From NCBI RefSeq assembly GCF_028368935.1, contig NZ_JAQNDK010000001.1, positions 3,410,001 to 3,474,000 of the forward strand: a DNA stretch of 64,000 nucleotides. The letters run 5' to 3'. Source of the DNA: Sorangium aterium (GTDB taxonomy: Bacteria > Myxococcota_A > Polyangia > Polyangiales > Polyangiaceae). The translations under genes were made by a program, and so were the position numbers. The notes beneath the pieces are model-generated. The model had not been told where the DNA came from, ran no database searches, and saw only the letters and a program-made list of their open reading frames with translations. Below, one piece after another: positions 48,618-61,492 of this stretch (position 1 is its first letter; each line of letters begins with the position of its first letter).

Positions 48618-49457
48618 ATGTCCGATTTCCGCCGCTTCCGCGGCACCGAACGCTACCTCACGAGCGAGGCGCTCGAGGCCGCCGTCAACTGCGCGCTGGT
48701 GCTCGAGCGGCCGCTCCTCGTCAAGGGAGAGCCCGGCACCGGCAAGACGCTGCTCGCCGAGGCCATCGCTCGGAGCCTGTCGGCCGAGCTCATCACCTGG
48801 CACGTCAAGAGCACCACGCGGGCCCAGGACGGGCTCTACGTCTACGACACCGTGCAGCGGCTCTACGACGCGCGCTTCGGCGACGGCGACGTCCGCGACA
48901 TCCGCAGGTACATCAAGCTCGGCCCGCTCGGTAATGCGTTCAACGCCTCGGCGCGCGTCGTGCTCCTCATCGACGAGGTCGACAAGGCGGATCTCGAGTT
49001 CCCGAACGATCTCCTCCACGAGCTCGATCGGATGCGCTTCCGCGTCGCCGAGACCGGCGACGAGATCGCCGCGCGGGAGCGGCCTGTCGTGATCATCACC
49101 AGCAACAACGAGAAGGAGCTGCCGGACGCCTTCCTGCGCCGCTGCGTCTTCCACTTCATCGATTTCCCGGAGCCCGAGCTCATGCGGGAGATCATCCGCG
49201 TCCATCACCCCGATCTCGATCGGACGCTCGCCGACCAGGCGATGCAGGTCTTCTACGAGATCCGGAAGAACACCCGGATCCGGAAGCGCCCCTCGACGAG
49301 CGAGCTCATCGACTGGATCGCCGTCCTGCGCAGGGCGGGCGTGGGTGAGGTGAAGCTCGACAAGGCGCTGCCGTTCCTCGGCGCGCTGCTCAAGAAGGAG
49401 CAGGACCTTGTCGCGCTGGCCGATCAGCTGGCGGGCGGCAGGCGGTTCCGGTCGTAG
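48618..49457 (+). CDS. MoxR-type AAA+ ATPase, paired with CoxE-like protein
   Basis: 279 residues. Walker A is KGEPGTGKTLLAEAIA, Walker B LLIDEVDKADLEF, sensor 1 ITSNNEKELPDAF, and the arginine-finger region is VFYEIRKNTRIRKRP-like. It belongs to the AAA ATPase group found with VWA-CoxE genes (CoxD-like), distinct from the Bat-operon MoxR at 34320. Family members help insert metal cofactors or remodel enzymes; CoxD/CoxE act on carbon monoxide dehydrogenase, but no such enzyme is nearby. It is followed after 2 bases by its vWA partner. Confidence 0.9.
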   Translation: MSDFRRFRGTERYLTSEALEAAVNCALVLERPLLVKGEPGTGKTLLAEAIARSLSAELITWHVKSTTRAQDGLYVYDTVQRLYDARFGDGDVRDIRRYIKLGPLGNAFNASARVVLLIDEVDKADLEFPNDLLHELDRMRFRVAETGDEIAARERPVVIITSNNEKELPDAFLRRCVFHFIDFPEPELMREIIRVHHPDLDRTLADQAMQVFYEIRKNTRIRKRPSTSELIDWIAVLRRAGVGEVKLDKALPFLGALLKKEQDLVALADQLAGGRRFRS

Positions 49458-49459
49458 CG

Positions 49460-50662
49460 ATGTTCGTCGCGTTCCTCTACGAGCTCCGGGCCCGCAAGGT
49501 CCCTGTCGGCGCCCAGGAGGCCGTCGGCCTCGCGCGCGCGCTCGCCGCTGGCCTCCACGAGAGCTCGCTCGAAGGCTTCTACCACGTCGCGCGGGCGATG
49601 CTCGTCCACTCGGAGGCGCACCTCGACGACTTCGATCTGGCGTTCGCCCAGCACTTCCGCGGCGTGCACGTGGAGGCCAAGGCGGTCACGGAGGAGCTCC
49701 TCTCGTGGCTCCGGGATCCCATCAAGATGCGCGCCCTCTCGGACGAGGAGAGGGCGATGATCGAGGAGCTCGATCTGGAAGAGGTGCTCCGGCGGTTCGA
49801 GGAGCGCCTCCGCGAGCAGCGCGAGCGCCACGACGGGGGGAGCCGGTGGATCGGGACCGGCGGCACCTCGCCGTTCGGCCGCGGCGGCTTCCATCCGAGC
49901 GGCATCCAGGTCGGCGGCCCCGCAGGCGGGCGCAGCGGCGCCGTGCAGAACGCCGACGCCCGCCGCTACCGCCCCTACCGCAGCGATCTCACGCTCGACG
50001 TGCGCCAGATCGAGGTGGCGCTGCGCAAGCTGCGCGCCTTCGCGCGCGAGGGCGGCGATCGCGAGCTCGACATCGAGGCGACCATCGACGCGACGGCCAG
50101 GAACGCGGGCGAGATCGAGATCGTCACGCGGCCCCCGCGCCGGCCGAACACGCGCGTGATCCTGATGATGGACGTGGGCGGCTCCATGGATCCCAGCGCC
50201 GCGCTCGTGTCGCAGCTCTTCAGCGCGGCGAAGCGCGCGACGCACTGGAAGGAGCTGCGGAGCTACTACTTCCACAACTGCGTCTACGAGAGGGTCTTCA
50301 GGACCGAGGGGCTCCTCGACCCGATCCCGGTGCGCGAGCTCCTCCGCGAGTGCGGGAAGCACCACAAGCTCGTGATGGTCGGAGACGCCTCGATGGCGCC
50401 CTACGAGCTGCTCGGCTCGTCGGGCTCCGGCGGCGGTGCGGGCTCCTCGTTCGACCCCGACGCGCGGCTGCCCGGCGTCGCCTGGCTGATGATGCTCCGC
50501 GACCATTTCGATCGCGCCGTGTGGCTGAACCCGGATGGGATCGGCCCCTACCCCCACCCGACCGTCGACGCGATCAAGGGCATCTTCCCGATGTTCGCGC
50601 TCACGCTGGAGGGCCTGGGAGAGGCCATCGCCGAGCTCGTCCGCGGCCGCGGCCGCGCCTGA
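49460..50662 (+). CDS. VWA-containing CoxE-like protein
   Basis: 400 residues. The N-terminal ~200 residues are helical ([20 protein letters not shown]), with a Gly-rich linker ([19 protein letters not shown]), as in CoxE proteins; the C-terminal ~190 residues are a vWA domain. The metal site reads [13 protein letters not shown], so the usual DxSxS is DxGxS, with the middle Ser replaced by Gly. The vWA fold continues with [12 protein letters not shown] and [16 protein letters not shown]. It forms a two-gene operon with the AAA ATPase just upstream, and presumably acts as its adaptor. Target unknown. Confidence 0.85.
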
Positions 50663-51608: not shown

Positions 51609-52277
51609 TCACGCGTTCGGCAACCACATGCGGAACGCAGCGCCCCCGCACCGGCCCGCCGTCGCGGCGATCTCGCCGCCGTGCGCCTCGACGATGACCC
51701 GGCTCAGCGCGAGGCCGAGGCCGGTCCCCTTCACCTTGGCGGTCACGAGCGGATCGAAGAGGTGGTCGGCCACGCACGGATGAACGCCGGGGCCGTTGTC
51801 CTCGACCTCGAGGTGCGTGCGCTCATCGCCCCTCCACGCCCGCGTGACGATCACGCCGCCGGCCCCCTCGTCGAACGCCTCGATCGCGTTGAGGTAGAGG
51901 TTCGAGAAGACGCGCTCGAGAAGGATCGGGTCGCACAGGAGCGTGAGGTCGGCCGGCGCGACGGCGACCTCGAACCGGACCGCCGTGCGCAACACCAGCG
52001 CGTGCCGCGCGCTCTCGATGAGCCGGCCGAGGTGCGCCGGCTCGCGCCGCAGCGGCTCGCCGCGCGCCAGCCCGAGGACGCTGCCGATGACCTCGTGCGC
52101 CTTGCGGATCTCGCACGTCACCCGATCGAGGTGGCGCAGCAGGCAAGGCCGATCGTCGAGATCGCGCTGCGCCAGGTAGAGCGACGACTCCGCGACCGCG
52201 AGGGCGTTGCGCAGCTCGTGCGCGACGCTCGCGCCGACCGCCCCCGCCGCGGCCAGGCGCGCGGCGCAGCACGCCAT
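51609..52277 (-). CDS. Soluble sensor histidine kinase (HisKA-HATPase only)
   Basis: 222 residues from the ATG at 52277, chosen over one at 52298 because it has AAGGAGG eight bases upstream. The H-box is SVAHELRNALAVAES (H20), the N-box ERVFSNLYLNAIEAFDEG, the G1 box VEDNGPGVHP and the G2 box GTGLGLALSRVIVEAHGG. There is no sensor domain, no membrane segment and no PAS domain before the H-box (only ~18 residues), so input must come from a partner protein. No response regulator is adjacent. It resembles the NtrB/DevS kinase core; orphan soluble kinases of this type are common in myxobacteria. Confidence 0.9.
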   Translation of the reverse strand: MACCAARLAAAGAVGASVAHELRNALAVAESSLYLAQRDLDDRPCLLRHLDRVTCEIRKAHEVIGSVLGLARGEPLRREPAHLGRLIESARHALVLRTAVRFEVAVAPADLTLLCDPILLERVFSNLYLNAIEAFDEGAGGVIVTRAWRGDERTHLEVEDNGPGVHPCVADHLFDPLVTAKVKGTGLGLALSRVIVEAHGGEIAATAGRCGGAAFRMWLPNA

Positions 52278-52421
52278 CTCGTGACCCTCCTTCGCCATAA
52301 AGCAAAGCCCAGCGTAGCCGATCCACGAGCGATCGCCCGCGCACGCTCCACGCTTCGCGCCCCGTACGCCGCCGCCGCCGCCGCCGGGAGGATCTTTACG
52401 ACGCGACCGTCCCGGGCTGGC

Positions 52422-55472
<3,051 letters not shown>

Positions 55473-55585
55473 GGCGCTTCGGCGCGTAGCATGGCCGGCC
55501 GGCGCCGGCACCCGCGGCTCGCTCGAGCCGGCTCGAGCCGCCGTCCGGGGCCGCAGGCCGGAGCGGCGCGGCGGTCTCCTTGGGC

Positions 55586-55591
55586 TATGCT
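55586..55591 (+). promoter_or_regulatory. Putative -10 element for leaderless start at 55598
   Basis: TATGCT, six bases, then GTG. Confidence 0.5.
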
Positions 55592-55597
55592 CACGAC

Positions 55598-55939
55598 GTG
55601 CGCGAGCGTGATGCCCATCATGTGGAGCTCGACCGGGCGCGGCACGTCGAGTACCGGGACCCCAGCGAGTTCGACCGGATCGCCTTTGCCATGCGCACGC
55701 TGGACCGCCTCCGGCCGAAGCGGATGACGGTGGCCGTCTACCCCGCGCTCGCCGCGATGCGCGTCGAGCGCGGGAGCAACTTGCATCGCGGCGAGGGCGG
55801 CTCGTGGGCGATCGTCGGCATCCCGCCGCACGCGAGCCGCGAGCACATCGCGTACGCCCTCGCCGAGCTCGCGGGCGTCGAGTCGGTGCCTTACGCCGTA
55901 CAGAGCCTCCTCGCCGCCGACAGGAACACCGACGCCTAG
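55598..55939 (+). CDS. Small conserved-looking protein of unknown function
   Basis: 113 residues from a GTG at 55598 (a TTG at 55580 is in frame). The sequence reads as an alpha-beta domain: VELDRARHVEYRDPSEFDRI, MRTLDRLRPKRMTVAVYPAL, GGSWAIVGIPPHASREHIAYALAEL. No motif identifies a family. It is divergent from the fused radical SAM gene, 125 bases apart, and 130 bases before the BrkB-family gene, so its own promoter is likely. Codon third positions are consistently G or C, which supports a real gene. Confidence 0.65.
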   Translation: MRERDAHHVELDRARHVEYRDPSEFDRIAFAMRTLDRLRPKRMTVAVYPALAAMRVERGSNLHRGEGGSWAIVGIPPHASREHIAYALAELAGVESVPYAVQSLLAADRNTDA

Positions 55940-56069
55940 GCGCGCGCGCCGTAGCGTTGGAGCGCCCGAGCGCCGCTGCGCGGACATCGCCGCCGTCCCG
56001 AGATCGGCCGCGCGCGGCGGCGGGGCGGATGGTATTGCGCCCCGCACGAGGGAGAGCGACGCTGCGCCC

Positions 56070-57134
56070 GTGCCTGCTCCGATCCGGCAACACATCGCGC
56101 GCCACCGCGCGGCGAAGGCGGTGTGGAGCGTCATCATCAGCCTGGATCGCCACAACGGGCCGCGGGCCGCGAGCGCGATGGCCTTCGACGCGTTCCTCAG
56201 CCTGATCCCGCTCGCCGCCTTCGCCGGCTATGTGCTCAGCCGGATCCACCAGTGGTCGGATGTGGTGGTGCGGCCCATCCTGCAGGCGGCGCCCCCGGAC
56301 GTCGCGAAGCTCGTCTCGGAGGAGCTCATCCGGCTCTCGCAGTCGTCGGCGGTCGCGCCGATCAGCATCACCGGCTTCCTCTGGATCACGTCCTCCGGGC
56401 TCTCGACCGCCATGGGCGTGTTCGACACGATCTACAACACGCGCGAGCGCCCCTGGTACGTGCGCAGGGCGATCGCGGCGGCGTGCGTGATGGCCAGCCT
56501 CGCCGTGGTGCCCGTGGTCGCAGGCGTCGGCGTGCTGATCGGCACGCTCTCCGGATCGATCGGCGCCCGCATCGTCGCCTTCGCCCTCCCCGGGGGCCTC
56601 GTCATCTGCATGGTCGCCGCCTTCTTCAGGATCTCGATCCAGCGCCCGAACATCGAGCGACGCCGGATCTTCCCGGGCGCGGTGCTCACGGTGGTGCTCT
56701 GGTCCGCCGTGTCGACCCTCTTCTCGCTCTACGTGGCCACGCTCGGCCGCTACGCCACGTTCTACGGGAGCCTCGCGACCGTCGCGATCTTCCTGTTCTG
56801 GCTGTGGCTCCTGGCGCTGGCGCTGCTCATCGGAGGCGAGCTGAACGCGCGCCTGGAGCGAGAGCGCGCCGGCGTGACGTCGATCCCACCCCCCGGCAAG
56901 TGGAGCGCGCTCGCGCTCTCCGACCTGCCCGAGTTCTCCGACCTGCCCCAGGGCGTCACGCCGCCGCCCCAGAGCGTCACGCCGCTGCCCCTGAGCACCA
57001 CCCTCCCCCAGGGCGCAGCGCTCCCCCGCGGGGCCGCGGCGCGGCTCGGCGACGCCCAGGGCGCGGGCGGCGCGGACGAGGACGAAGCGCGCGGCGCACC
57101 GAGCTCGCCGCGCGAGCACCAAGCCGCTGGGTAG
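56070..57134 (+). CDS. YihY/BrkB-family inner-membrane protein
   Basis: 354 residues from a GTG at 56070, without a clear Shine-Dalgarno. Six membrane segments (for example SAMAFDAFLSLIPLAAFAGY, AIAAACVMASLAVVPVVAGV, AIFLFWLWLLALALLIGGEL) and the family residues FYGSLATVAIFLFWLW and GGELNA match the YihY/virulence-factor BrkB (UPF0761) family, formerly taken for ribonuclease BN. Function is not known; transport or envelope roles have been suggested. The C-terminal ~80 residues are a Pro-rich cytoplasmic tail with imperfect LPQGVTPPPQSVTPLP repeats. Followed after 204 bases by the HSP90-like pair. Confidence 0.88.
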   Translation: MPAPIRQHIARHRAAKAVWSVIISLDRHNGPRAASAMAFDAFLSLIPLAAFAGYVLSRIHQWSDVVVRPILQAAPPDVAKLVSEELIRLSQSSAVAPISITGFLWITSSGLSTAMGVFDTIYNTRERPWYVRRAIAAACVMASLAVVPVVAGVGVLIGTLSGSIGARIVAFALPGGLVICMVAAFFRISIQRPNIERRRIFPGAVLTVVLWSAVSTLFSLYVATLGRYATFYGSLATVAIFLFWLWLLALALLIGGELNARLERERAGVTSIPPPGKWSALALSDLPEFSDLPQGVTPPPQSVTPLPLSTTLPQGAALPRGAAARLGDAQGAGGADEDEARGAPSSPREHQAAG

Positions 57135-57338
57135 GCCGAAGCGGCGAAGGCCGACGCCCCCGGCGGCCGCGCGCTGAAGGACGGACGGTCGACGCGCGAC
57201 GGTTCGGCTCGGCACGGGCGGTGAAAGCGCCTTCGCTCGTCCGCCACTCGGCGCTCACTCGGCGCGCATTCGCACGGTGGGTGCGCGCAACTCGCGCAGG
57301 GGCATGTCGAGGGCGGGCGTGAGGGGGAGCAGTCGAGC

Positions 57339-59231
57339 GTGCACGCGCACTACGGAGCGGGGGGTGACGGGGGCGGCGACCGACGCGCCGCGCCTTTGCC
57401 GGGCGACGCCGGGCTGTACTTTCTGGGGGCGCTGCACGAGCTCGTCGCCGTCGGCCTGCACCGCCCCGCGCTCGAGGCGCTGTGCGCAGGGCAGCGCGAC
57501 CTCGCGGAGCCGCCCATCGACCGCGCGTACCTGCTCAAGATCCTCGACGAGGAGATCTGCCGCCAGTTCGGGCATCCGCTCCGGCCGCTCATCGAGCTCG
57601 TGCTCAACGCGGCCGACGCGGCCCGCGCGCCGCAGCCCGTCGTCGACGTCGCCGTCACCGACGGGCGCGTCGAGGTCAGCGACGCCGGCGCCGGCATGGG
57701 GCTCCGGGCAATCCTCTCACGGCTGCTCATCCCGTTCGCGACGGACAAGCGGCCAGGGATCGATCTCGGCCGGTTCGGGGTCGGGTTCTTTTCCGTGCTC
57801 GGGCTGGGGCTCTCGGATCCGGAGAGCTTCAGCCTGCACCTCACCACCGGCGACGGCGTCGAGGGCTGGGCGATCCGCGTCGTGGCCTGGCCCAGCGCGG
57901 GCGACGCGAGCAGCGCGCCTGCGGCCGCCTCGGAGGAGCTCGGGCAAGCCCGCGGCCGCGCGTCGCCCGAGCTCACCGCCGCCCTGATGTGCTCGGTGCG
58001 CCGGATCGCGCCGCTGCTCGGGACGCGCGTGCGCGTCACCTCGGCGCTGCTCGAGACCGCCACGGTCCGCGCTTACCTGCGCGACGCGCTCCACTTCTTC
58101 CCCGCGAGCCGCGCCCTCGTGCTGCTCGACGGCGCGGCCGTGAACGACGGCCGGCTGATCTCCGGCGGGCAGCTCATCCAGGAGCGGGTCGCGGTCGCGG
58201 TCGCGCCCCAGCCCCCCGGCGCGGCCGCGCTGGAGTCGCGGCCCCACCTCGAGGAGGAGCGCGACGACGCGCTCCTCGCGCGGTTCCACGTCGGCGGGCG
58301 AGGGCTGCTCCCGAGCATCTCGGCGGCCACCTTCCATGCCGGGGTCAAGGTCGACGCCTGCCTCGCCCTCGCCGAGCTCGCGCTCATCGATTTCCCGGCC
58401 GCCGTGGAGCTCACCGAGGGGCGGGACGCGCTCAAGGTCGGGCCCGAGTTCACCGCGGTCGCGACGGCGTTCTACCGGCGCCTCATCGAGCTCGCCGCGG
58501 CGAGCGGCGAGGGCCGTCGCACGCGCGACAGGCTCGCCGAGATGGCCGCCCAGATCAGCGCGCTCATGCTGCAATCCGCGGGCTGGGACGAGGTCGCCCT
58601 CGATCTCGCGCGCGCCCTGCTCGGCCCCGGGCGCTGCATGGTGACCCCCGAGCGGCGCGAGGCGCTGCTCGGGTTCCTCGGGCCGAGCGTGGCCGAGCGG
58701 CTGTTCGTGCCGGAGAGCTTCTGGGCGGAGCGCGAGTGGCAGCCTCACCTGCCCGGCGAGCGCGAGCTGCTCGAGGACGAGCTCGAGATCGACGCGCCGG
58801 AGACGCTCTCGGCCCTGGCGCGGCGCCGCGGCGACCTCGGGGGGCTGCCGCTGCTCGTCGCGCGGGCGACGAGCCCGCACACGACGATGGTCGCCCTCTG
58901 CCGGAGCCGGCTCCAGCCGGATCGCGGCGCGGGCGCGGCGGCGCGCCGGGCGCCGGGCGCGCCGCCGCTCCCCGACGCGCCGGGGCGGCGGCCGGCCGGG
59001 CCGCTGCCGTGCCTCGGCACGCGCCGGCTCCTGCTCATCCGCGACGACAGCGCGGCGGTGCGGCGCCCCTCGGGCTGGAGCGACTGGTACGCGCTGCGGG
59101 CCGCCTTCGACCGGGCCTCCGGGGTGCGCGAGGCCGATCTCGAGCGCGATCTCATCGTCGGCGAACCCGTGGACGGGACGGCCTTCGCGGCGCCCCGGCC
59201 CGGCGAAAGGACGTCTGGAGGCGAGCCATGA
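57339..59231 (+). CDS. HSP90/GHKL-type ATPase, first of a tandem pair
   Basis: 630 residues from a GTG at 57339 with GGGGGAG in good position. Residues ~60-160 have the Bergerat ATP-binding fold: ELVLNAADA (E86, N90, D93), DAGAGMG (115-121) and GRFGVGFFSV (144-153), closest in pattern to HtpG/HSP90 and MutL-like ATPases. The rest (~480 residues) is not HSP90 middle or C-terminal domain and has no motif I recognise; segments such as YLRDALHFFPASRALVLL and HAGVKVDACLALAELALIDFPAA are globular. It contains no membrane segment. The TGA overlaps the ATG of the next gene (ATGA), so the two ATPases are made together. Not annotated as a known defense system; role unknown. Confidence 0.85.
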   Translation: MHAHYGAGGDGGGDRRAAPLPGDAGLYFLGALHELVAVGLHRPALEALCAGQRDLAEPPIDRAYLLKILDEEICRQFGHPLRPLIELVLNAADAARAPQPVVDVAVTDGRVEVSDAGAGMGLRAILSRLLIPFATDKRPGIDLGRFGVGFFSVLGLGLSDPESFSLHLTTGDGVEGWAIRVVAWPSAGDASSAPAAASEELGQARGRASPELTAALMCSVRRIAPLLGTRVRVTSALLETATVRAYLRDALHFFPASRALVLLDGAAVNDGRLISGGQLIQERVAVAVAPQPPGAAALESRPHLEEERDDALLARFHVGGRGLLPSISAATFHAGVKVDACLALAELALIDFPAAVELTEGRDALKVGPEFTAVATAFYRRLIELAAASGEGRRTRDRLAEMAAQISALMLQSAGWDEVALDLARALLGPGRCMVTPERREALLGFLGPSVAERLFVPESFWAEREWQPHLPGERELLEDELEIDAPETLSALARRRGDLGGLPLLVARATSPHTTMVALCRSRLQPDRGAGAAARRAPGAPPLPDAPGRRPAGPLPCLGTRRLLLIRDDSAAVRRPSGWSDWYALRAAFDRASGVREADLERDLIVGEPVDGTAFAAPRPGERTSGGEP

Positions 59232-61492
59232 CCCAGATCTCGTACGGGCTTTTCTCGGAGCTCTTGCTCGTGCGGATCCACGGGCGCGCCGAGGCCTACC
59301 TGCAGGCGAGCAGCGCGGAGCGCCTCGCGCTCGTCGCCGCCTGCCGCGGCGAGGCCACGGTGCCCGACCTCGCGCAGCGCATCCTCTCGCGCACCATCTA
59401 CGCGCAGGCGTCGTCGCGCATCGGCCCGCTCCGCGAGCTGCTCCAGAACGCGCTCGACGCGTCGCCGCCGGGCGCCCGCATCGACGTCCGCTCGTCCGAG
59501 GACGGGCGCGAGATCTCGGTCACCGATCAAGGCCGCGGCATGAGCCGGACCGAGCTCCTCGCCGACCTGCTCGTGCCCTTCCGGAGCGGCAAGGCGGGCG
59601 AGCCCGACGCGATCGGCGAGCACGGGATAGGCTTCTTCTCCGTGCTCGAGATCGCGCCGTGGATCGAGGTGGTCACGGCGACGCCCTCGGGCGGGCACCG
59701 GCTGCTCGTCGCGCCGCTCGGCGGGGGGCCGCCCTACGAGGACTTCTCGTGGACGCTCCTGTCCTTGCCCCGCCCCTCGCCCGCGCCGTACGCGGACGGC
59801 GGCCGCGCGGGCGTCCCCGCGTCGCCGCGCGCCTCCGAGCCGCCGCGCCGCCCGACGACGGGCACCTCGGTGAGGCTGTCGCTCGCGCAGCCGATCTCGC
59901 GGCCCGCGCTCGCCGCGGAGGTCGCCGCGGCGGTGGGGCTGGTCGACGCGGCCGTCGCGCGGATCTACGTGGACGGCGCGCTCGTCAACACGGCGCGCGG
60001 GCGCCTCCGCCGCGCCGCGGAGGTGCCGCTCCGGCTCCCGCCGTCGGGCGAGCTCTGCGGGGCGGTCGAGCTGCTCGTGGGCCGGGGCGAGGGCATCGAG
60101 CCGCAGCTCACGATCACCCAGAAGGGGCTCACGGTGGCGGCGCGGATCGATCCCTTCCCCGGCCCCGAGCTCGGGCTTCACCGCGAGCTCGCGCGGGCGA
60201 TCACGGCGGCGGGCTTCGGCCTGGTCGCGGAGCTGCCGCTCGGCGTGCCGCTCAACAAGGGCCGCTCCGCGGTCGCGGCGACCGCGTCCACGGCGGTCGA
60301 GGCGGCGCTCGTCGCGGCCTTCGAGCGGTTCGTCCTGCGCGACGCCCTGTACGACCGCGAGCTCCTGCGCGCGGTCGATCACCGCCTCTCCTCGGTCCTC
60401 GACCGGCTCCTCCACGCGGCGCTGCTCGGCGAGAGCATCACGATCGCGTCCGCGCAGGCGGTGGACGAGATCGATCCGGTCGCGCGCACCCCCACGGTGG
60501 CGGCGCCCGAGCACGTCATCCGCTTCGCGAGCGGGCTGCTCGACGCGCCCCTCTTCCGGTCGATCGTGGTCGACGCCGGCCAGCGGCCCTCGGGGGCGGC
60601 GCTGTCCCCGCCCGGCCAGGTCCACTACCGGAGCGCGCCGCTGACGCTGCGCGAGCTGCTCCAAGCGCACCGGACCGGCGCGCTCCGCCCGCTAGAGGCC
60701 GCGCCGTCGCTGTCGTCGAGCCAGGTCCGCAGCACCGCCCGCTGGCCGCTCGGCGCCTCCGGTCCGGGGCCGGAGCTCGCCGTGGGGCGGGAGACGCCCG
60801 GCGTGCGGCCCGGGGAGCTCGTGTACCTCGCGCTCGACGAGCCGCTCGCGCAGGCGTTCTGGCGGCGCCTCGCGAGCGAGGGCGCGGCGTCGCAGCCCCT
60901 CCAGGCCGCCGCCGGGGCGCCTCCGCGGGCGCCGAGCGCCGCCCCGTGCCCGATGCCCCGCACCTCGCGCGAGGCGCTCCTCAAGACCGCGATCGACGTG
61001 CCCGGCGTCCGCGCCGTGGCCGCGGTGATGACGATCATCGAGCGGCTCGACGCGGCGATCTCCGAGTCCACGGACCTGCCGGCGTCGCCGATCTGGGTGC
61101 ACCAGGACCTCTACGGCCCCGACGAGATGGCGCACACCGACGGGAGCGGGATCAGCGTGAACCTCGCGTCGGCGCGGGTGCGGGCGCTGCTCACCGCGGT
61201 GCTCCTGCGCGACGACGCGGTCGCCTTCACGGCGCTGGCGGATCTCCTGCTCCACGAGAAGACGCACGTCTCGCTGGCGAGCTACGTCCCGCGCCCGACG
61301 GCCGAGCACGGCACGAGCTTCTACCGCCGCAAGGACTGGATGCGCCGCCGCCTGCTCGCGGCGATCGCGAGCGGCGCGGTCGCCGACCCGATGCGCTGGC
61401 TCGCGGTGGCGCGCCGGGGGCTCGCGAGCGCGGCGCTGCCGGCGCCGTCGGAGCTCTCGCGGGCGTTCCTCGCGGCGGCCGCGGCCGCATAA
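59228..61492 (+). CDS. HSP90/GHKL-type ATPase with C-terminal HExxH zincin-like module
   Basis: 754 residues, coupled to the previous gene by ATGA. The Bergerat fold at residues ~60-140 has ELLQNALDA (E70, N74, D77), DQGRGM (100-105) and GEHGIGFFSV (130-139). A central region follows up to ~600 with TITQKGLTVAARIDPFPGPE and GVPLNKGRSAVAAT, reminiscent of HtpG middle-domain loops without convincing identity. The C-terminal ~140 residues contain LLLHEKTHVSLASYV (H676, E677, H680) and, 14 residues on, EHGTSFYRRKDW (H694), the HExxH...HGxxF pattern of minimal zincins such as SprT-like proteases. Fusion of an HSP90-type ATPase to a metalloprotease-like domain is unusual. No signal peptide. Substrate and role unknown. 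Confidence 0.82.
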   Translation: MTQISYGLFSELLLVRIHGRAEAYLQASSAERLALVAACRGEATVPDLAQRILSRTIYAQASSRIGPLRELLQNALDASPPGARIDVRSSEDGREISVTDQGRGMSRTELLADLLVPFRSGKAGEPDAIGEHGIGFFSVLEIAPWIEVVTATPSGGHRLLVAPLGGGPPYEDFSWTLLSLPRPSPAPYADGGRAGVPASPRASEPPRRPTTGTSVRLSLAQPISRPALAAEVAAAVGLVDAAVARIYVDGALVNTARGRLRRAAEVPLRLPPSGELCGAVELLVGRGEGIEPQLTITQKGLTVAARIDPFPGPELGLHRELARAITAAGFGLVAELPLGVPLNKGRSAVAATASTAVEAALVAAFERFVLRDALYDRELLRAVDHRLSSVLDRLLHAALLGESITIASAQAVDEIDPVARTPTVAAPEHVIRFASGLLDAPLFRSIVVDAGQRPSGAALSPPGQVHYRSAPLTLRELLQAHRTGALRPLEAAPSLSSSQVRSTARWPLGASGPGPELAVGRETPGVRPGELVYLALDEPLAQAFWRRLASEGAASQPLQAAAGAPPRAPSAAPCPMPRTSREALLKTAIDVPGVRAVAAVMTIIERLDAAISESTDLPASPIWVHQDLYGPDEMAHTDGSGISVNLASARVRALLTAVLLRDDAVAFTALADLLLHEKTHVSLASYVPRPTAEHGTSFYRRKDWMRRRLLAAIASGAVADPMRWLAVARRGLASAALPAPSELSRAFLAAAAAA

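Follow-up and report, generated by a model that had tools for sequence, protein, structure and literature searches.

What do two overlapping genes for HSP90-type ATPases do together when only the second ends in a motif like that of zinc proteases? The genes, which we call A and B, lie in a 64,000-nucleotide stretch of Sorangium aterium DNA (the window), and positions below are those of the window unless a genome or locus is named. An initial annotation had described them as adjacent genes with a 4-base stop/start overlap and intact Bergerat motifs in both, the second closing on HExxH and, 14 residues on, HG..F. All of this is borne out: A and B share ATGA at 59228-59231, each carries an N-box, DxGxGM and GxxGxGF, and B ends with H676EKTH680 and E693HGTSF698. 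We consider it about an even bet (probability roughly 0.5) that A and B form an ATP-gated, two-armed clamp with one protease centre in B, a layout resembling that of MutL-alpha. The features of the locus are as follows.

57339..59231, + strand: gene A, 630 aa, GTG start; HSP90-type (GHKL) ATPase that lacks a metal motif
57594..57620, + strand: N-box of A, ELVLNAADA (E86-A94; E86-x3-N90-x2-D93)
57681..57698, + strand: G1 box of A, DAGAGM (115-120)
57768..57788, + strand: G2 box of A, GRFGVGF (144-150)
58407..58430, + strand: ELTEGRDA of A (357-364), invariant; R362 is a candidate second-domain catalytic Arg
59228..59231, + strand: ATGA, overlap of the A stop and the B start
59228..61492, + strand: gene B, 754 aa, ATG start; HSP90-type (GHKL) ATPase with a zincin-like C-terminal domain
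59435..59461, + strand: N-box of B, ELLQNALDA (70-78; E70-x3-N74-x2-D77)
59525..59542, + strand: G1 box of B, DQGRGM (100-105)
59615..59635, + strand: G2 box of B, GEHGIGF (130-136)
60248..60268, + strand: PLNKGRS of B (341-347); R346 is a candidate catalytic Arg
60953..61489, + strand: C-terminal domain of B (576-754), mini-zincin-like by model and profile comparison
61100..61144, + strand: HQDLYGPDEMAHTDG (B 625-639), invariant in 14/14 B loci
61253..61267, + strand: HEKTH (B 676-680), with putative metal ligands and a putative catalytic Glu
61304..61321, + strand: EHGTSF (B 693-698), with candidate third ligand H694

Both proteins carry GHKL ATPase domains

A and B both have the features that define the GHKL/Bergerat superfamily, namely an N-box that includes the catalytic Glu and the Mg-binding Asn, together with DxGxG and GxxGxG. 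Pfam HATPase_c matches B at 9.6e-8 (32.9 bits, above its cut-off of 26.4) and A at 0.006 (17.4 bits, below it), and in NCBIfam the two score best with the sacsin-type N-terminal ATP-binding domain NF047352 (B 8e-10, 39.1 bits; A 4.3e-6, 27.1 bits), with each score under the cut-off of 50. Neither protein matches HSP90 PF00183 at E<=1. For the HtpG equivalog NF003555, B scores 18.7 bits against a cut-off of 371 and A is not among the matches listed; for MutL TIGR00585, B scores 20.3 bits against 180, too low for membership. Three segments that exclude the ATPase core (57938-59228, 59728-60968 and 60968-61489) drew no Pfam match at E up to 10, and the last of them also stayed below the cut-off of the SprT-like family PF10263. 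Homology to the HSP90 middle domain was not detected by profile, despite the conserved PLxKGRS in B and ELTEGRDA in A. Within PLNKGRS of B, residues P341, L342 and K344-S347 are invariant among aligned orthologues, and the motif appears to resemble LPLNxSR of HSP90. The initial annotation had held that the rest of HSP90 is missing from the pair; this stands at the level of family profiles and has to be softened for the C-terminal domain of B, which is somewhat like the HtpG C-terminal domain in fold. Strong membrane segments are absent from both proteins (two windows each, barely above 1.6).

Of 106 family genomes, 87 encode true HtpG (PF00183), and every one of the 14 pair-bearing genomes does so; the pair therefore exists alongside HSP90 and does not replace it. 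There is also a single-gene HSP90-like paralogue of about 600 aa, family C, found for example at G000:C2:289837-291639 (L047:5838-7640, - strand). Its C-terminal LN..H/S..V..AR......LLAR.LL looks HtpG-like by eye. Family C occurs in the home family and is probably widespread in the class: a search with the B profile at E<=1e-12 picked up 58 of 240 class genomes, and outside the genomes with full-length B its matches, via the ATPase domain, include families f3, f5, f6, f18, f22 and f23. Among the loci of these matches that were read, HExxH is absent (0/19; 21 were read, two of them without the C terminus). A separate, true SprT-like protein is encoded elsewhere in the genome (G000:C4).

We placed the N-domains of A, B, family C and HtpG in a tree, using 9 of 10 HtpG sequences and leaving out one without the motif pattern. 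IQ-TREE gave the split {A,B}|{C,HtpG} a value of 73, and FastTree grouped B with HtpG. Because the two programs disagree, the N-domain tree does not settle whether A and B are sisters.

The pair stays together in one clade of one family

The initial annotation had tied its proposal to the two genes being conserved as a pair and to HExxH and H694 being conserved among homologues. With a profile of the B C-terminal domain, 14 of the 108 family genomes sampled for B matched strongly, at E 3e-80 or better. The A profile, searched within the home family (106 genomes, the sample also used for HtpG), matched the same 14 and one more, G019, where the A fragment ends at the contig end and which was counted neither as a pair nor as an exception. 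By genus, the 14 pair genomes are five Sorangium, six g15 and one each of g4, g32 and g39. A and B are neighbours by coordinates in all 13 testable genomes; in the fourteenth, G174, they lie on separate contigs, so that adjacency is untestable there. Outside the home family, the C-terminal profile found no strong match in 96 order, 116 class and 140 phylum genomes, and the full-length B profile found ATPase-domain matches only, among 240 class genomes. Thus both expectations hold, the pairing in 13/13 testable genomes, all from a single clade of one family across our samples, and HExxH with H694 in 14/14 B loci.

Several weaker candidates were set aside. In the family search for B, G143 (E 0.0056) proved to be an unrelated frame that has neither HExxH nor an N-box; six genomes of the class sample gave weak rows at E 0.007-0.07, and G063 of the phylum sample matched in a 54-aa frame, all of which we took as noise.

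Eight further loci have both genes complete, with identities of 51-86% for B and 54-84% for A. Among the nine loci whose genes were read from end to end, with start codons set by hand, seven have the 4-base stop/start overlap; the other two, L043 and L044, belong to one genus (g15), and in them A and B are 41 or 48 bases apart. All 13 A loci that are long enough keep the N-box, G1, G2 and ELTEGRDA, and the fourteenth, the contig fragment L125, keeps the N-box, G1 and G2. HEK[TA]H-x13-HG is intact in every B locus (14/14), so both hallmarks of a zincin, HExxH and a downstream third His, are kept throughout, with H694 as the putative third ligand.

Six comparisons with three Sorangium strains gave dN/dS of 0.34-0.46, as for genes under constraint, which argues that the pair is more than a chance arrangement. 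The identity matrices of A and B correlate at r = 0.98 (36 pairs, nine loci), as expected if the genes are co-inherited. Taken together, the dN/dS values and this correlation suggest that A and B have both been retained, probably by vertical descent.

Two details of the B alignment are recorded here. HQDLYGPDEMAHTDG, which lies before HEKTH, is a run of 15 consecutive invariant residues that includes two His and three Asp. In strain So0157-2, B reads HGTSFISPRRKD (L003:12077-12085), whereas its 13 counterparts have HGxSFYR[RK]K; relative to them it carries two inserted residues immediately past the third-His motif.

Evidence for a zincin-like domain at the C terminus of B

The main challenge to a protease centre in B comes from HSP90 itself. 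B could be a divergent HSP90 paralogue whose C terminus is the HSP90 dimerisation domain, with H676, H680 and H694 forming a structural or regulatory metal site, in which case A and B would make a heterodimeric chaperone and not a protease. The B domain does occupy the position that the C-terminal domain has in HSP90, and a profile of 32 sequences of the related family C, far diverged as it is, aligns with HtpG over 484 columns (E 4.3e-22). In the portion of their paper that concerns this relation, Trame et al. describe the mini-zincin Acel_2062 as resembling E. coli HtpG residues 511-624, a relation unrecognised in SCOP or CATH for which they suggested a common origin in 2014; the same portion notes that one minimal Glu-zincin showed no activity (PMC3890501).

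We therefore compared the B C-terminal domain with both kinds of domain, trimming alignments to domain ranges ahead of some tests; in the HtpG set, two of 12 loci gave no ORF by the pattern used. Against 20 SprT-like proteins of related genomes, the B profile scored 30.2 (pairwise E 3.2e-4), a value reached by none of 150 column shuffles (best shuffle 25.6), with a reversed SprT control at 11.6. The score fell to 17.6 after masking HExxH and to 25.2 after masking EHG; the first of these drops indicates that the match rests largely on the motif. Against HtpG C-terminal domains the B profile scored 11.0, equalled by 121/150 shuffles, and against the family C C-terminal domain 13.5, equalled by 19/150. 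Pairwise alignments compared with shuffles gave a mean Z of 1.64 for B-SprT (180 pairs), 0.46 for B-HtpG (90 pairs) and -0.32 for B-family C (117 pairs). With an SprT HMM, four of nine B sequences exceeded the 99th percentile of shuffles, the best B score (5.3) lying under the best shuffle (7.1), and with HtpG and family C HMMs the B scores stayed within shuffles. A search of the C-terminal profile against solved structures returned nothing below E 1.7, the best being an unrelated helicase subunit.

These comparisons favour the zincin reading of the B C terminus over the HSP90 one, mainly through the motif. A control pairing of family C with HtpG over the C-terminal domain alone was itself weak (pairwise mean Z 0.31; hhalign E 0.0018), so the sequence test has little power against an HSP90 C-terminal domain, and for this reason the chaperone explanation stays in contention.

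An AlphaFold2 model of the B C-terminal domain, built on a shallow alignment of 5 close sequences, reached medium confidence at best (pLDDT 69.4, pTM 0.65; the five models gave pLDDT 69, 63, 44, 41 and 39), and full-length B was modelled at pLDDT 41. The best model runs from a long helix through three short strands and a helix to the HExxH helix and a further helix, which starts two residues ahead of the third His. The three-stranded sheet of a mini-zincin, its active-site helix and a minimal part C-terminal to them are all discernible in this medium-confidence model. Foldseek found no match to it below E 2.5; among the weak rows were zinc proteases and C-terminal domains of HSP90, but also folds unrelated to either. 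We ran VIA-align on 219 of Foldseek's chains. The top match was Wss1 (5xbn) at Z 8.8 over 114 residues and 3.4 Å, followed in second place by 1oz9, which we take to be YbeY, at Z 7.7 and in fourth by 6mdw, presumably SPRTN, at Z 7.0, on a scale where 7-8 is the typical best for models without a clear match and values below 8 may reflect merely a common arrangement. Archaeal minigluzincins (Z 5.2-5.8) and HtpX (5.3) came lower, as did the C-terminal domains of HSP90/HtpG, which reached Z 5.8 at most and for the most part superposed at around 7 Å; one of them, 1sf8_H, gave Z 5.2 over 84 residues and 3.6 Å.

The metal ligands of Wss1 are given as H115, H119 and H125 in the part of the source that describes its site (PMC5557861). 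The aligned range ends at model residue 142 and Wss1 residue 148, an offset of 6 that equals the offset between model His119 and Wss1 His125; as arithmetic on range ends, with residue pairs not displayed, this is consistent with the third His of B superposing on His125. The structural comparison thus bears on the chaperone explanation from both sides: HSP90/HtpG C-terminal domains are level with the minigluzincins, but Wss1, YbeY and SPRTN rank above HtpG. Moreover, the catalytic-type Glu of HExxH, which a structural site would not need, is kept in 14/14 B loci. Weighing these points, we regard the chaperone explanation as unlikely, though one to be taken seriously.

Could HExxH instead be a chance motif in a helical domain, and the pair simply two uncharacterised GHKL ATPases? 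The motif-driven similarity, the medium-quality model and the lack of a significant Foldseek match would all fit. However, HExxH and EHG at SprT-like spacing are invariant over orthologues that are 51-86% identical to B, and the model shows a helix, three strands, the HExxH helix and a third-His helix. We find this explanation quite improbable. The zincin/SprT layout that the initial annotation had proposed for the end of B thus holds in its motif, its likeness to the SprT profile and its best superpositions (Wss1, YbeY and SPRTN); less secure is the fold itself, at pLDDT 69 and Foldseek E>=2.5. We conclude that the C terminus of B is zincin-like, a reading supported by sequence and model and short of proof.

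Genomic neighbourhood and the question of defence

Upstream of A lie a BrkB/YihY gene and, on the other strand, a gene for a radical SAM/DUF2344 protein; downstream of B come DUF3160, then GST, then, about 4 kb on, an ABC-type ATPase with two ABC_tran stretches that we read as ABC-F. The radical SAM/DUF2344 gene occupies the portion of a 1597-aa open frame (52422-57215, - strand) that runs from 55472 down, and the frame outside that portion is partly antisense to BrkB. Also near the pair is a 229-aa protein (51612-52298, - strand; HATPase_c 4.1e-20) that looks to be of histidine-kinase type, and about 7-8 kb upstream of A (48618-50659) a gene for a MoxR-type AAA ATPase precedes one for a VWA_CoxE protein. 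In other genomes, YihY is again near the pair in the g32 genome and two g15 genomes, and in G039 an ABC protein is directly 3' of B. Two g15 loci (L043:3106-12197 and L044:2258-11393) show groES-groEL-yihY, one or two uncertain frames, then A-B, with GroEL assigned by Pfam and the preceding GroES by eye. Among the loci read, groEL adjoins the pair in one genus only.

The initial annotation had also suggested a defence machine, and one could imagine an anti-phage or conflict system whose ATPase detects an intruder and whose protease kills or cuts it. GHKL ATPases do occur in restriction and conflict systems, as described for paraMORC/MORC in the relevant part of PMC2292703. PADLOC matched B to TmtA (3.1e-9, over 83 residues of the ATPase domain), the ABC-type neighbour to mad3 (2.9e-46) and the MoxR-type ATPase to TRIP13 (5.4e-8). 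We take these matches to reflect widely shared ATPase domains; at 1e-5, eight of ten neighbours (8 from this genome and 2 of G056) had no match. The neighbours, namely radical SAM/DUF2344, BrkB, DUF3160, GST, ABC and GroEL proteins, look like ordinary chromosomal genes, which points, not strongly, to a housekeeping or stress role. Plasmids gave no full-length match (one hit, to the ATPase domain alone), phages gave none for the B C-terminal domain, and among viral contigs the C-terminal profile yielded 11 pattern matches and no relatives. With ordinary neighbours, PADLOC matches to general ATPase domains and a single-clade distribution in our samples, as for a vertically kept gene, the defence suggestion finds little support, the mad3 match of the ABC-type neighbour notwithstanding, and we judge it very unlikely.

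Discussion

GHKL clamps, as established for HSP90 and MutL, shut as their two ATPase domains come together upon ATP binding. Under the clamp reading of the pair, A and B would be co-translated and would form a clamp of this type, presumably as a heterodimer, and ATP binding would close the two Bergerat domains on each other. The predicted mini-zincin metal site, of SprT/Wss1 type, would sit at the C terminus of B alone, so the closed clamp would hold a protein substrate at a single zinc protease centre. Adjacent, co-inherited and mostly overlapping genes with one metal motif between them fit such an asymmetric, MutL-alpha-like arrangement. The role of the machine would likely be cytosolic protein quality control, and not phage defence.

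How does this compare with known systems? The well-known ATP-dependent proteases use AAA+ rings, and in FtsH and YME1 an AAA+ ATPase is fused to a HExxH zinc protease; their motor is an AAA+ ring, whereas A and B have a GHKL clamp. With HSP90/HtpG the pair shares the Bergerat N-domain (N-box, DxGxGM and GxxGxGF), the position of the C-terminal domain and, in B, a weak likeness of fold in that domain, but the family-level profile and the middle domain are unrecognised in A and B, and true HtpG coexists with the pair in 14/14 genomes. B has in common with SprT, Wss1 and SPRTN the HExxH, a downstream third His with HG..F and, in the model, a helix-sheet-helix topology; it differs from them in that its domain has no Pfam match (E up to 10) and is joined to a GHKL ATPase. 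Similar in layout is MutL-alpha (MLH1-PMS2), which likewise has GHKL arms and a metal-dependent catalytic module at the C terminus of one arm (in part from PMC2292703), although that module is a nuclease and not a zincin, and sequence likeness to the pair is confined to the ATPase core. The initial annotation knew of no described system with this arrangement, and in the open-access literature we likewise found no described GHKL-zincin system.

The published suggestion of common descent for mini-zincins and HSP90 C-terminal domains, set beside an HSP90-type ATPase that precedes a zincin motif, raises the prospect that B may show the link between them. We put forward tentatively, and with clear doubt, the idea that B is a living HSP90-metallopeptidase link, a zincin with an intact metal site in the place of the dimerisation domain, and that together with A it forms an ATP-dependent protease which, as the first of its kind, is powered by a GHKL clamp. 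The pair is kept by some large-genome soil myxobacteria. If the idea is true, these bacteria would hold a second solution for coupling ATP to protein cutting, with a clamp ATPase instead of an AAA+ ring, and B would make testable the common origin of the HSP90 C-terminal domain and zincins proposed in 2014, as that proposal is set out in the part of PMC3890501 cited above.
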